64,000 nt of DNA from Halothermothrix sp. Its GTDB lineage: Bacteria; Bacillota; Halanaerobiia; DY22613. The notes beneath the pieces were generated by a model that saw only the letters and a program-made list of their open reading frames with translations, did not search any database and was not told the DNA's origin. The translations under genes were made by a program, and so were the position numbers. Of the stretch, positions 1 through 62,837 are shown one piece after another; position 1 is the stretch's first letter; each line of letters starts with the position of its first letter. The stretch lies in the NCBI GenBank assembly GCA_016841825.1, contig JAENYK010000001.1, positions 372,001 to 436,000 of the forward strand, read 5' to 3'.

Positions 1-648
1 CAAATTAACGATGAGTCCGCAGAATCTGCCTCGTCTGTAAATCAAAATACCGATAATCCAACAGAGGTTAATTCTACTGCAGACCAGGCAGCCAATGAAT
101 CTGCAGAGTCTGTCTCAACGGTAAATCAAAGTACCGATAATCCAATAGAGGTTAGTTCTACTGCAGACCGGGCTGCCAATGAATCTGCAGAGTCTGTCTC
201 AATGGTAAATCAAAATACCGATAGTTCAAAAGAAGTTAATTCTACTGCAGACCAAATTATTAATGAGTCCGCAGAATCTACTTCCACTGAAGACCAAAGT
301 GTCAGTGATTCAGCAAAATCTGATACTACTATCGACAAAGCTACCGTTAACAAGACAGAATCTAATTCTGCTGAAGATAAACAATCTCAAACAAATATCA
401 CTGGTAAAAATGATAGCACTAAGACCCAAAGCAGCACCATTACCATTGAGAAAAATGATAAAACTAAAAATGAAACTCCGAATTCTGAACAAACTCGCCA
501 GGATACCACAAGTAAAGATAAAGATTCTGTAAGTAAAGAAAAGAATGAGGAAAAATACGCTAATACTCAGGGAACATTAGCCAAAATACTCTTTCTATTT
601 AAAGAATTTGGTGCCTGGCTAAATGGGCTTGTGTTAAGCATTTTCTAA
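1..648 (+). CDS. C-terminal part of a repeat-rich protein (5' end outside window)
   Basis: The frame is open from base 1 to a TAA at 646-648, so the true start lies upstream. The visible 215 residues are low-complexity and polar (Ser, Thr, Asn, Glu, Asp, Lys). They begin with about three and a third copies of a 28-residue repeat containing NESAES and STAD motifs, then become Lys-rich. The last 25 residues switch to a hydrophobic/aromatic stretch (LAKILFLFKEFGAWLNGLVL) that could be a membrane anchor or amphipathic helix. This fits a long disordered linker before a C-terminal anchor, perhaps in a surface or envelope protein. I do not recognise the family and the N-terminal domain is not visible. 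A bidirectional terminator follows. Confidence 0.75.
   Translation, partial: QINDESAESASSVNQNTDNPTEVNSTADQAANESAESVSTVNQSTDNPIEVSSTADRAANESAESVSMVNQNTDSSKEVNSTADQIINESAESTSTEDQSVSDSAKSDTTIDKATVNKTESNSAEDKQSQTNITGKNDSTKTQSSTITIEKNDKTKNETPNSEQTRQDTTSKDKDSVSKEKNEEKYANTQGTLAKILFLFKEFGAWLNGLVLSIF
10..288 (+). repeat. 84-bp in-frame tandem repeat
   Basis: Units at 10-93, 94-177 and 178-261 and a partial unit from 262 share an 84-nt (28-codon) period. Each begins with an AATGA-type codon pair encoding NES and includes a CTGCAGA segment. The repeats keep the reading frame. More copies may lie upstream of the window. Confidence 0.85.
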
Positions 649-5446: not shown

Positions 5447-5478
5447 AAAAATGACCTTCCACCGGTTAGCAGAAGGTC
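5447..5478 (-). terminator. terminator of the peptide cassette
   Basis: On the minus strand GACCTTC pairs with GAAGGTC (5472-5478 with 5453-5459), followed by a run of seven T. It lies just downstream of the repeat-peptide gene and touches the 3' end of the converging pseudouridine synthase gene. Confidence 0.8.
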
Positions 5479-5503
5479 AAAGCTATGTAAGACGCCAAAA
5501 TCA

Positions 5504-5707
5504 TTACACTTCAATTGGAGCTGTTGGACCACCCAGGGGTCCAACTTCTATAGGTGCAGTTGGACCGCCAGTGATACCTGCTTCGATTGGAGCTGTAGGT
5601 CCTGAAGCTGGACTTACTTCAATTGGAGCTGTTGGACCTGCCAATACTACCAATGAAGCAAAGATCATCATCAGTAGGCTTAGAAATACTACTATAAATT
5701 TTCTCAT
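5504..5707 (-). CDS. secreted precursor with four GPTAPIEV/A repeats (putative signalling peptide)
   Basis: A 67-residue protein. Residues 1-23 form a signal peptide: MRK, a strongly hydrophobic core, and VLA before the expected cleavage site. The remainder is exactly 44 residues: three 12-residue units (GPTAPIEV plus SPAS; GPTAPIEA plus GITG; GPTAPIEV plus GPLG) and a final GPTAPIEV ending at the stop. The gene starts 1 nt after the stop of the upstream TPR gene, and its ribosome binding site (AAAGGAGAGGG) is made by that gene's last codons, so translation is probably coupled. The layout resembles Phr precursors next to Rap receptors. The multi-copy format and the function are inferred; no mature peptide can be proven here. 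Confidence 0.85.
   Translation of the reverse strand: MRKFIVVFLSLLMMIFASLVVLAGPTAPIEVSPASGPTAPIEAGITGGPTAPIEVGPLGGPTAPIEV
5507..5638 (-). repeat. 36-bp in-frame repeat encoding GPTAPIEV units
   Basis: Four copies of a roughly 24-nt block (encoding GPTAPIEV or GPTAPIEA) are separated by 12-nt variable spacers, giving a 36-nt period. Third-codon positions differ between copies (for example the Ile and Val codons) while the octapeptide is kept, which argues for selection on the peptide rather than recent duplication. Confidence 0.85.
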
Positions 5708-5708
5708 C

Positions 5709-6884
5709 TTACCCTCTCCTTTCTAATTGTTGTCTATATCTATCATATTCACTACGATAGAAAGCATATTCAGACTCATTCCCCAAACGCTGAGCACTTA
5801 TGTATTTGAGCAGACATACTTCATAAAGTAATTTCAAGCAGGGTAAATTTTGATCCTTCTTATATCCCAACTCTGCAAAAGCATAAGCCAGATCAAGATT
5901 TCCAGTTTTAAAAAAATATAAAGCAGTGCCATAACAATTTCTACTCATCTCATTAGTATCATTTCTCTTGCAAAGCCAATTCCAGGCCAGATCAAATATA
6001 TCTTTCGCCTCTTCATATCTTTCCTGATGCACATAGATGATTCCAATCTCATCCATCACATAGCCAAACAGGTTCTCTTTGGTAAACTGCTCCTCTTTCA
6101 TCTTGTCTAAGATCTCTAAAGCAGCATCAAACTCCTCCTTCTCAATCAGGATACAGGAATAATCCAACATACTAAATAATTCTAAATCCCTAAATCCATG
6201 CTGTTTACACATCAAGATAGCCTCTTTTAAGTGTCTCTCCGCTTCGATTAAATCATTGTTAGTCTCTGTAGAATAATTCGGAACCTCCAGATACCGATAC
6301 CAGTCTTTAGTTAAATCAAACTCCTCCACAGTTAAACTCTTTAAGCGATCTTCAACCCGTTTGACCTGCGAATAATAATTCCGCTGTTGACTCTTATAAA
6401 TCAAGCAGCAGGATATCTCAATATATGATCTGATAATAATCCTCATCTCTTCGCTCAGATCTATATCTTTCTCTTTGCATCGTTCTATGTCTCGTTGTGC
6501 ATATTTGTAGATATCGCTAAAGATCTGGATCGCCTCATCATATTCACCAATAATCCGTTTGCTGACACCAAGTGCCATCTCCACTTTTATCAGTTGCCCT
6601 TTCCAATCTTTGAGCCTGGTCTTATTCTCATAGTAGAGCTTTTCGATAATATCATGACCTATCATGCTGTCAATACTTAAATAAGCCATCCCCCTGATCC
6701 GTTCGCTCTCTATAATAAATAAATCATTTTTCAAATAAATTTCGGCAAGCAGTTTTGCCTGAGTAGCCAGATCATATGACCGAATATAGTTATGTCCTTC
6801 ATTCATTGCCCTGGTCGCTTGTGTTATTAATTCATGAAAGTCTTTTTCTAATGCATCTTCTGTAAAATTTACTCTCTCAGCCAA
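5709..6884 (-). CDS. TPR-repeat Rap-like receptor protein
   Basis: A 391-residue helical protein with repeated TPR-like segments, for example ALGVSKRIIGEYDEAIQIF (about 105-123), EIGIIYVHQERYEEAKDIFDLAW (about 285-307) and the final GNESEYAFYRSEYDRY region. No HTH or transmembrane segment is evident. Its length and all-helical plan resemble Rap regulators (about 370-380 residues) rather than the HTH-bearing PlcR/NprR group. It is clearly paralogous to the protein at 61677-62837; both share the C-terminal ending, including NESEYAFYRSE and LERRG. A perfect sigma-A promoter lies upstream and a secreted repeat-peptide gene follows immediately. Receptor function is inferred from this arrangement. 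Confidence 0.85.
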   Translation of the reverse strand: MAERVNFTEDALEKDFHELITQATRAMNEGHNYIRSYDLATQAKLLAEIYLKNDLFIIESERIRGMAYLSIDSMIGHDIIEKLYYENKTRLKDWKGQLIKVEMALGVSKRIIGEYDEAIQIFSDIYKYAQRDIERCKEKDIDLSEEMRIIIRSYIEISCCLIYKSQQRNYYSQVKRVEDRLKSLTVEEFDLTKDWYRYLEVPNYSTETNNDLIEAERHLKEAILMCKQHGFRDLELFSMLDYSCILIEKEEFDAALEILDKMKEEQFTKENLFGYVMDEIGIIYVHQERYEEAKDIFDLAWNWLCKRNDTNEMSRNCYGTALYFFKTGNLDLAYAFAELGYKKDQNLPCLKLLYEVCLLKYISAQRLGNESEYAFYRSEYDRYRQQLERRG

Positions 6885-6916
6885 AACAAATTCCCTCCTT
6901 TTTGGGTTCTACCTAC

Positions 6917-6945
6917 ATTATACATTTGTAGATAATTTTTGTCAA
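6917..6945 (-). promoter_or_regulatory. consensus sigma-A promoter of the TPR/peptide operon
   Basis: On the minus strand TTGACA (6945-6940) is separated by exactly 17 nt from TATAAT (6922-6917). The -10 box lies about 30 nt upstream of the TPR start codon, giving a short leader with the ribosome binding site. Confidence 0.85.
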
Positions 6946-7061: not shown

Positions 7062-7790
7062 TTAGATCTCCTGTGCCCGCTCTTTGTATTCTGCTCCATC
7101 CAACTCATAACCTGGCTTAATTGGCATCTGGATGATCTGTTCCAGAGTTTCTTTAGCATCTTTTTTCTTACCAGCAGCATTATAAGCTTCATATAAACCC
7201 CATTGGAAAACAAAACTATCTGGGTTTAACTCAACCGACTTCAATGCATATTCTACAGCCTTCTTCTTATCGCCAACACTCAAAGGCCAACCTGGAACTT
7301 TCCAATATAGCTTGCCTAAAACATAATACGCATCCGGAAATTGAGGATCAATCTCTAAACACTGCTCCAGTTCAGTTTTCATCGGTTTCACCATAAACAG
7401 ACTATTCAGTATTCCTTTTTCTTCTCCAACCCGTCCCATCAACGCAGCTAACCAGTAATGACCCTCTACCTGGTCTGGATATAGTTGAGTGGCCTTTTCT
7501 GCTCTTTCTTTTCCCTTTTCATATGTAGCTAAAGGATCTTCAATATTATTGCCAAATTTTTCATAGCACCTGGCTGCTTTCCAGAGTAATTCATAGTTAT
7601 CCGGATATTCTTCCAGTAAGCTCTCATAAATAGCTCCTGCTTCAATCAGATTCGCGGGATCATCCCATGCTTGAAAAAGTTTTTCTGCTGCACTAATCTG
7701 TGCTGCCAGATCATCTCCTGCCGCCCAGATAGAGCTGCCTATAAATAAACTCATAAGTACCAGTAACACAATAGAAGTTTTTTTCAACAT
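7062..7790 (-). CDS. secreted TPR protein (TRAP-T/TatT-like)
   Basis: 242 residues. A signal peptide occupies about residues 1-23 (MLKKTS, hydrophobic core, cleavage near WAA). The mature part is built from TPR-like helices, with units around NYELLWKAARCYEKF, VEGHYWLAALMGRV, PDAYYVLGKLYW and SFVFQWGLYEAYNAAG. The pattern resembles the TRAP-transporter T-component/TatT family of periplasmic or extracellular TPR proteins. No TRAP membrane subunits are nearby, so the partner is unknown. It lacks a clear lipobox Cys and is probably released or surface-associated. It is transcribed as a single unit between two terminator-like hairpins. Confidence 0.75.
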   Translation of the reverse strand: MLKKTSIVLLVLMSLFIGSSIWAAGDDLAAQISAAEKLFQAWDDPANLIEAGAIYESLLEEYPDNYELLWKAARCYEKFGNNIEDPLATYEKGKERAEKATQLYPDQVEGHYWLAALMGRVGEEKGILNSLFMVKPMKTELEQCLEIDPQFPDAYYVLGKLYWKVPGWPLSVGDKKKAVEYALKSVELNPDSFVFQWGLYEAYNAAGKKKDAKETLEQIIQMPIKPGYELDGAEYKERAQEI

Positions 7791-61094: not shown

Positions 61095-61202
61095 CTAAAG
61101 AACTATAATAGTGTGTGCTGTTGACCCATCCTCTGCAGGTGGTCTAACTAGCCCACCTGCAAGAGACACCTCGACACCTACCATCAATAAAGCCCAGATC
61201 AT
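61095..61202 (-). pseudogene. decayed or alternative third peptide precursor
   Basis: The DNA before it repeats the leader of the two upstream precursor genes (AGTAGGAAGTAGAGAG), but the segment with the usual ATG is altered. The frame continues from an internal ATG (61202) with a hydrophobic core (MIWALLMVGVEVSLAGG) and a short tail RPPAEDGSTAHTIIVL. The signal-like core aligns with those of copies 1 and 2, but the secreted part is different. It could be a decayed copy or a functional precursor with a weak start. Confidence 0.45.
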
Positions 61203-61256: not shown

Positions 61257-61442
61257 CTAATCATCACCTACTGGAACCCACGGTCCACATTGAACAATTG
61301 CACCTCCAGTATGATCAGAAGTAACAACCGTTACGTCAGTAGATATGCTTTCTAACGTGATCTCATCAGTAGCTGATACAGCAAAGGTAAAGCTAGATAC
61401 AACCATCAACAACATTAAACTAACTACCAAAATTCTCCTCAT
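61257..61442 (-). CDS. secreted peptide precursor, copy 2
   Basis: 61 residues. The first 24 form a signal peptide (MRRILVV, hydrophobic core, cleavage near VSA). The mature part begins TDEITLES and ends HTGGAIVQCGPWVPVGDD, with one Cys. It differs from copy 1 only at a few positions, all in the last ten residues. AGGAGAAGG lies 5-6 nt before the ATG. Cotranscribed with the TPR receptor gene. Confidence 0.8.
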   Translation of the reverse strand: MRRILVVSLMLLMVVSSFTFAVSATDEITLESISTDVTVVTSDHTGGAIVQCGPWVPVGDD

Positions 61443-61488: not shown

Positions 61489-61674
61489 CTAATCAACACC
61501 TATTGGAACCCACGGGTCACATTGAACAATTGCACCTCCCGTATGATCAGAAGTAACAACCGTTACATCAGTAGATATGCTTTCTAACGTGATCTCATCA
61601 GTAGCTGATACAGCAAAGGTAAAGCTAGATACAACCATCAACAACATTAAACTAACTACCAAAATTCTCCTCAT
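61489..61674 (-). CDS. secreted peptide precursor, copy 1
   Basis: 61 residues, nearly identical to copy 2 but ending AIVQCDPWVPIGVD. It starts 2 nt after the stop of the TPR gene; its binding site GAGAGGAGAGGG is formed by the last codons of that gene (LERRG), so translation is coupled. The gene order repeats that of the GPTAPIEV cassette at 5504-6884, and the signal peptide is of the same type, but the secreted part is unrelated. Probably an extracellular signal or small secreted effector. Confidence 0.82.
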   Translation of the reverse strand: MRRILVVSLMLLMVVSSFTFAVSATDEITLESISTDVTVVTSDHTGGAIVQCDPWVPIGVD

Positions 61675-61676
61675 AA

Positions 61677-62837
61677 CTACCCTCTCCTCTCTAATTGATT
61701 TCTATATTTTTCATGCTCACTTCTATAAAAAGCATATTCTGATTCATTTCCATGTCGCCTAACCTGGATGTATTTCAAAAGGGTAATCTCATAAAGCAGC
61801 TTTAAACTACAAAGGTCATTATCTCTGTTCAAAGCCATTTCTGCAAAAGAGTATGCCATACTTAATTTACCAATCTTGTGATAATATAGACTCGTGCCAT
61901 ATAAATTTCTGCTTAGACCATCTAAATCCTTCTTTTTGGATAACCAATTCCAAGATTTATGCAAAACTTCTACACCTAATTCTAATTTACCAATATTAAT
62001 ATAAGCGATACCTTTTTCATTTAGAACATAGCCTAAAACATTTTCAGCAATATATTCCTCATTCTCTAGAAATTCCAGAATTTTTATTGAGTCGAAATAA
62101 TCCTCTTTTTCAATCAATATATTTGCTTTATTCAGCAAACACATTAATTCCATTTCTTTAAGCTGATATTCTTTTGCCAGTCTTAACGCTTCATTAATAT
62201 AACGTTCAGCTTCTTTCAATTCGTTATTAGTCTCTATCGAAAAGGTGACTTTATTTAATTCTTCCTTTATCTGTTCTAAATTATCATAGCCAATTTGTCT
62301 AACCTTATTTTCGTAACTATTGATAATTAATGGATAGTTTATTTGACGGCTTTTATATAATAATGTAACTACAATATTTGCTGTCACTCTAATGACTCTT
62401 GATATGTTGCTTAGTGAATTTTTCCCATTCTCATTAGCCTGTTCTATCTGCTTTTGACTTAGTTTCAGACAATCATGAAAAAATATCAATGCCTCATCAT
62501 ATTCTCCAATACATTTTTTGGCAGTTCCCATTGCATAAGTCATTAAAGTCTCGAAATATATTTTCCCCTTTATTAATGAGCGACTTTCACAATAAAGCTT
62601 ATTTAAAATCTCATGACCACTCATTCTATCCATTCCTAATCGGGATAAACCTCTGAGCAATTCGCTCTCAAAAATTGATAAAGGATCCTCTAAAATAGTC
62701 TGTGCAATGTATTTAGCCTGAACTGCCAGATCATAAGCTTTCTCGTAATCAAGATCCCTATTCATTGCCTGCTTACATTTCTCTACACGTTCTTTAAATT
62801 GGTCTTTCATATTCATCTTGACAATAGAATCAATCAT
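61677..62837 (-). CDS. TPR-repeat Rap-like receptor protein (second paralogue)
   Basis: 386 residues, all-helical with TPR-like units (YAMGTAKKCIGEYDEALIFFHDCLKL in part, about 108-133; EKGIAYINIGKLELGVEVL, about 285-303). No HTH, signal or membrane segment. It is paralogous over its full length to the 5709-6884 product: matching landmarks are ESE-LRG near residue 60, GHEIL/GHDII, CIGEYDEA/IIGEYDEA, IETNNELKEAERY/TETNNDLIEAERH and the C-terminal NESEYAFYRSE with LERRG. A GGGGTAGG binding site and a good promoter lie upstream. Inferred role: intracellular receptor for the peptide encoded next to it. Confidence 0.85.
   Translation of the reverse strand: MIDSIVKMNMKDQFKERVEKCKQAMNRDLDYEKAYDLAVQAKYIAQTILEDPLSIFESELLRGLSRLGMDRMSGHEILNKLYCESRSLIKGKIYFETLMTYAMGTAKKCIGEYDEALIFFHDCLKLSQKQIEQANENGKNSLSNISRVIRVTANIVVTLLYKSRQINYPLIINSYENKVRQIGYDNLEQIKEELNKVTFSIETNNELKEAERYINEALRLAKEYQLKEMELMCLLNKANILIEKEDYFDSIKILEFLENEEYIAENVLGYVLNEKGIAYINIGKLELGVEVLHKSWNWLSKKKDLDGLSRNLYGTSLYYHKIGKLSMAYSFAEMALNRDNDLCSLKLLYEITLLKYIQVRRHGNESEYAFYRSEHEKYRNQLERRG

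Follow-up and report, generated by a model that had tools for sequence, protein, structure and literature searches.

A TPR receptor gene and a small gene for a predicted secreted precursor with four copies of the octapeptide GPTAPIE[V/A] form an operon on the minus strand (5452-6945) of the window, the whole 64-kb stretch of DNA analysed here. The pair is probably an RRNPP-type intracellular peptide-sensing module whose receptor carries no HTH. The operon is composed of the following features:

6917..6945, minus strand: sigma-70/sigma-A-type promoter, TTGACA-17-TATAAT, 12/12 match
5709..6884, minus strand: TPR receptor gene, 391 aa, TTG start, AAGGAGGG ribosome-binding site, HTH-less
5504..5707, minus strand: precursor gene, 67 aa, four GPTAPIE[V/A] copies, predicted secreted
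5452..5479, minus strand: intrinsic terminator of the receptor-precursor operon, 12-pair stem, TTTTTTTATA T tail

Enclosed by one promoter and one terminator, the receptor and precursor genes are, as read from the sequence, a single unit. The operon promoter is one of just three perfect TTGACA-16..18-TATAAT matches on both strands of the whole window. The TAA stop codon of the receptor gene is separated by 1 base from the ATG of the 67-aa ORF, with the precursor's ribosome-binding site overlapping the receptor gene end. The first-pass annotation had described a 391-residue TPR ORF under a perfect promoter, followed after 1 nt by a 67-residue four-copy precursor, and each of these elements is confirmed from the sequence. 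Immediately upstream of the operon, a 242-aa secreted TPR-like protein is encoded (7062-7790, minus strand).

The precursor consists of MRKFIVVFLSLLMMIFASLVVLA followed by GPTAPIEV SPAS GPTAPIEA GITG GPTAPIEV GPLG GPTAPIEV, the fourth copy ending directly at the stop codon. The 23-residue leader has a positive n-region and a hydrophobic core, and its V-L-A/G junction fits the -3,-1 rule; a crude cleavage-site finder favoured a cut 6 residues upstream of this junction. Shuffling the mature part 20,000 times never produced more than two near-identical 8-mers, against the four observed. Differences between the octapeptide copies are almost all silent (pN 0.029, pS 0.595; pN/pS ~0.05), while the 4-residue spacers diverge at both kinds of site (pN 0.649, pS 0.706; pN/pS ~0.9). 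The copies are old, as their silent sites are strongly diverged, and the octapeptide is the selected product, its amino acids being kept while the spacers evolve freely. By this measure, the octapeptide and not the spacers is under purifying selection, which bears out the earlier suggestion that synonymous differences between copies reflect selection for the peptide. Corresponding pN/pS values between copies of other precursors are 0.038/0.684 for the three-copy L002 precursor and 0.065/0.727 for the two-copy L047 precursor.

A Pfam scan of the 391-aa receptor returns a weak TPR_12 match (9e-07), just under Pfam's cut-off; the receptor of the paralogous locus L002 has a TPR match above it. The AlphaFold model, built with four paralogues as alignment, is an all-helical superhelix of 20 helices (mean pLDDT 87, pTM 0.83). 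Rap proteins, in several cases with bound peptide, are the best bacterial chains against this model, with Z scores of 25.1 for peptide-bound Rap phi105 (3.9 Å over 309 residues), 24.7 for phi3T and 24.3 for RapF-PhrF, alongside 23.7 for MalT, 22.6 for NprR and 19.1 for AimR. Unrelated TPR superhelices (APPBP2, MalT and LGN, some of them eukaryotic) reach Z scores nearly equal to those of Rap or higher, and the match is not specific; the predicted fold supports the RRNPP assignment without proving it, since eukaryotic TPR superhelices score as high. A second modelled receptor, from family II, gives similar structural matches, and a PDB sequence profile search returned no RRNPP chains.

The module shares with RRNPP(A) systems a TPR receptor within 250-500 aa, an adjacent propeptide gene within 10-100 aa (67 aa here) and, in the predicted model, a TPR superhelix with a concave groove like that of known members, although other TPR superhelices score alike. 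The N-terminal helix-turn-helix of the HTH-bearing members (PlcR, NprR, Rgg, AimR and AloR) is missing, and Pfam scanning of the receptor matched no HTH family. Also missing is the hallmark of the Rap subfamily, the three-helix RapH_N domain that binds response regulators: it has no match in the same scan and none at E<=0.1 in either this genome (G000) or a relative (G001), whereas a B. subtilis control was detected. In the model, superhelix helices are present from residue 9 onwards and superpose on the TPR region of Rap and NprR. The receptor is thus Rap-like in predicted fold and proposed action and, without RapH_N, is not classed as a Rap. The RRNPP-like receptor/propeptide reading of the first-pass annotation is partly supported, by layout, selection and recurrence; its Rap-like receptor is so in predicted fold, without a RapH_N domain.

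Five family I receptors are present in G000 (5.08 Mb, 43 contigs), the other four being 41-43% identical to the 391-aa receptor. A small ORF lies 1-3 nt behind each of them (5/5), with a Sec-like leader at 4/5 loci. The paralogous features are:

61677..62837, minus strand: paralogous TPR receptor, 386 aa, about 40% identical, in the same window
61489..61674, minus strand: precursor 1 of the 386-aa paralogue, 61 aa, Sec-like leader, C-terminus ...CDPWVPIGVD
61257..61442, minus strand: precursor 2 of the 386-aa paralogue, tandem gene duplicate, C-terminus ...CGPWVPVGDD
L002, 2650-2766: three-copy precursor, MLNIKC-GPGLPLED-AY-GPGLPPED-ACAV-GPGLPLED-IL
L003: precursor with C-terminus ...VIASPTIPITDPWTTPISAIF
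L004: precursor with C-terminus ...LNGPWVPVTDD

A third small ORF behind the 386-aa paralogue (61095-61202, minus strand; MIWALLMVGVEVSLAGGLVRPPAEDGSTAHTIIVL) has an N-terminus that is not positive and may be decayed or a further peptide gene. The L002 precursor has a good ribosome-binding site and is leaderless, and it is in frame with the receptor gene, whose stop codon precedes it by two codons; the missing leader fits poorly with export. Recurrence of peptide genes behind homologous receptors, proposed earlier as a check, is found at all five family I receptors, and repeats recur beside paralogues (three GPGLPLED-type copies at L002). No conserved neighbouring genes surround the family I loci, and nothing there hints at the output partner.

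Outside this genome, the family I receptor was found solely in G001 (3.56 Mb). The orthologue (L013, 4158-6020) lies in the same gene order, flanked by RluD-like and threonine-synthase-like genes and, on the opposite side, by an SSB-like gene. The 3' end of the receptor gene is occupied by an IS element encoding a 518-aa transposase, the last residues of the receptor are altered and the peptide gene is absent; this receptor is probably an orphan. A detector requiring an adjacent propeptide should miss it, because the IS element removed the peptide gene. Beyond the bacterial family, no relatives of the family I receptor were found in 398 genomes of the phylum, 101 relatives, phages, plasmids and viral contigs, and a scan of a genome-contig collection, which may omit the window's own and near genomes and therefore carries little weight, likewise gave none.

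Scanning the DNA behind TPR genes in G000 and G001 revealed further receptor-peptide pairs in four more receptor groups. The family II receptors L047 and L050, from the two genera, share 66% identity. In the two-copy L047 precursor, GPIQKPV immediately follows the predicted leader and GPIQRPV ends at the stop codon, and the other family II precursor runs to its stop codon in about eight degenerate GPIE[E/Q]P[I/L/M] units; the GPI[Q/E]xP peptide is kept across genera while the remaining precursor has diverged. Conservation of repeats together with the receptor across genera, proposed as a check in the first-pass annotation, holds in family II; family I offers no such comparison, as the G001 peptide gene is gone. 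The precursors of two further groups are:

Family III: ...GPNWPPDDGITSLVEYL and ...NGPTWPGDS
Family IV: ...TTDPFLPTDENG and ...TTDPGIPWPPPTDG

Family V members with a predicted secreted small ORF behind them number about 14 in G000 and four in G001, and in both genomes the strong family V matches have a secreted-type small ORF downstream. The L123 precursor of this family contains two pseudo-repeats, PHPEPGN and PYPEPGN. L117 (235-2467, minus strand, reverse-complement coordinates) holds two tandem family V receptors, one with a predicted secreted small ORF behind it that ends in PIIGNPL and the other without a clear peptide. At L103 in G001, a second precursor gene lies 140 nt behind one receptor, encoding ...TTDGPSPAPSEGW after ...TPSPDPAD.

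The repertoire amounts to at least about 22 receptor-peptide pairs in G000, a lower bound counted around TPR matches only, and about eight in G001. A predicted secreted small ORF follows 20/55 receptor-like ORFs and 2/138 other ORFs of the same DNA (Fisher p ~1e-10), a ratio that is somewhat flattering, as the receptor-like set was defined via similarity to receptors found through their peptides; in the window alone, the count is 0/31 for other ORFs. Many of the PF13424 matches are TPR proteins lacking a peptide gene, so the TPR proteins here are not all receptors.

Two other readings would deny the peptide a role as a signal. The repeat could be a neutral or slippage-made low-complexity tail without function, since tandem repeats expand easily and copy number in family II is 2 in one genus and about 8 in the other; this is highly improbable, given that silent sites have diverged with amino acids kept, that the equally old spacers have not been conserved, and that repeats of differing sequence lie beside differing receptors. 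It is unlikely, to a lesser degree, that the peptide is a secreted effector, either a proline-rich antimicrobial or a multi-core natural product, with the TPR protein as regulator, chaperone or immunity protein. Multi-core natural-product precursors too are generally known to have multi-copy cores and spacers, and a Pro-rich [GDN]P..P core, a motif picked after viewing the data, is present in 18/23 precursors versus 6.1 +/- 1.8 in shuffles. Against such an effector stand the receptor-then-propeptide order, which is the RRNPP layout, and the ~22 pairs with diverged peptides in one genome, which suit a signalling repertoire better than toxins; moreover, the genes flanking the family I loci, judged from their sequences, are unrelated and include no recognisable gene for modification, proteolysis or export. 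A multi-core RiPP in particular is held unlikely, as the family I loci contain no recognisable maturation genes. Taken as a sensing module, the operon points to the four-copy peptide as a chemical message between or within cells.

For this sensing module, we infer a route of export, cleavage, spacer removal, re-import, groove binding and partner contact. The precursor would be exported through Sec and cut by signal peptidase between VLA and GPTAPIEV, which would free the N-terminus of copy 1 itself. Proteases would then trim the 4-residue spacers to yield up to four GPTAPIE[V/A] peptides per precursor, of about 755-783 Da, and an oligopeptide ABC importer would return the peptide to the cytosol; the genome contains ten strong matches to SBP_bac_5 (OppA-like) genes. 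There the peptide would sit in the superhelix's concave groove and alter how the receptor holds a cytosolic protein, as in Rap; a protein target is proposed because the receptor has no DNA-binding domain. One Spo0A is encoded in the genome, and a link to sporulation via Spo0A is possible.

The envelope bears on where the message is read. Halanaerobiales, to which this genome probably belongs, are known LPS diderms (PMC5007114), LpxC is encoded in the genome and the host probably makes LPS. With LpxC present, a Sec product would reach the periplasm first, so that the signal may serve first as an export-import readout in the periplasm and reach the outside only via pores. In a variant of the sensing reading, the system would be a cell-autonomous export-import or envelope-status timer, the peptide passing to the periplasm and being re-imported with little or no exchange between cells. 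The periplasmic destination of a Sec product and the size of the octapeptide (~783 Da), near the usual general-porin limit as generally known, argue for such a timer; possible passage via porins or vesicles and the action of monoderm RRNPP relatives between cells argue against it, and we consider it a minority option, plausible but doubtful.

Among known systems, Rap-Phr of Bacillus (Rap105-Phr105 and Rap3T-Phr3T, PMC11343458) is alike in its HTH-less TPR receptor of similar length and in the small precursor directly downstream, a Sec precursor by prediction here. Phr105 contains two ERPVGT copies with LKLA between them (PMC11343458), both systems thus having repeated peptide copies set apart by a 4-residue spacer. 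The system described here differs in having no RapH_N, no sequence homology found, four copies of an unrelated peptide, a diderm host and a first copy that starts right at the predicted signal peptidase cut. Its multi-copy layout, set apart earlier from the usual single-signal Phr precursors, lies within the known Phr format: AimR, NprR, PlcR and Rap propeptides with up to six identical copies are described for Bacillales (PMC9765709), and up to eight copies are cited in a study that examined two duplicated phage Phr precursors experimentally (PMC11343458). The main text of PMC12700828 notes HTH loss for a candidate subfamily, subfamily 17 of Anoxybacter fermentans, which resembles the present system in its HTH-less receptor and adjacent propeptide and belongs to a member of the Halanaerobiales, possibly of the same bacterial family as this genome. 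The AloR-AloP system of Paenibacillus has a comparably large paralogous repertoire, with >25 receptor-peptide pairs in some genomes versus about 22 here (PMC7425212), but AloR receptors carry an HTH and their hosts are Paenibacillaceae, whereas the receptors here are HTH-less. New here are the receptor family, the recurrent multi-copy and leaderless precursors, the repertoire size and the diderm setting; a full-text search found no open-access papers containing both 'RRNPP' and 'diderm'.

We give even weight to a broader proposal, in which ~22 HTH-less RRNPP-like pairs would form a lineage-specific repertoire in an LPS diderm, multi-copy precursors would have arisen repeatedly (4x, 3x, 2x and ~8x) with one leader lost, and sensing through signals with a [G/D]PxxP core would have become adapted to an envelope with two membranes. 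Descriptions of RRNPP signalling treat it as a Gram-positive Bacillota trait; a diderm repertoire of ~22 pairs raises the question of whether such peptides cross the outer membrane or are read in the periplasm. Multi-copy precursors with diverged silent sites offer a natural test of the residues read by the receptor and of the sites of proteolytic cleavage, and a peptide core common to diverged receptors bears on the evolution of specificity.
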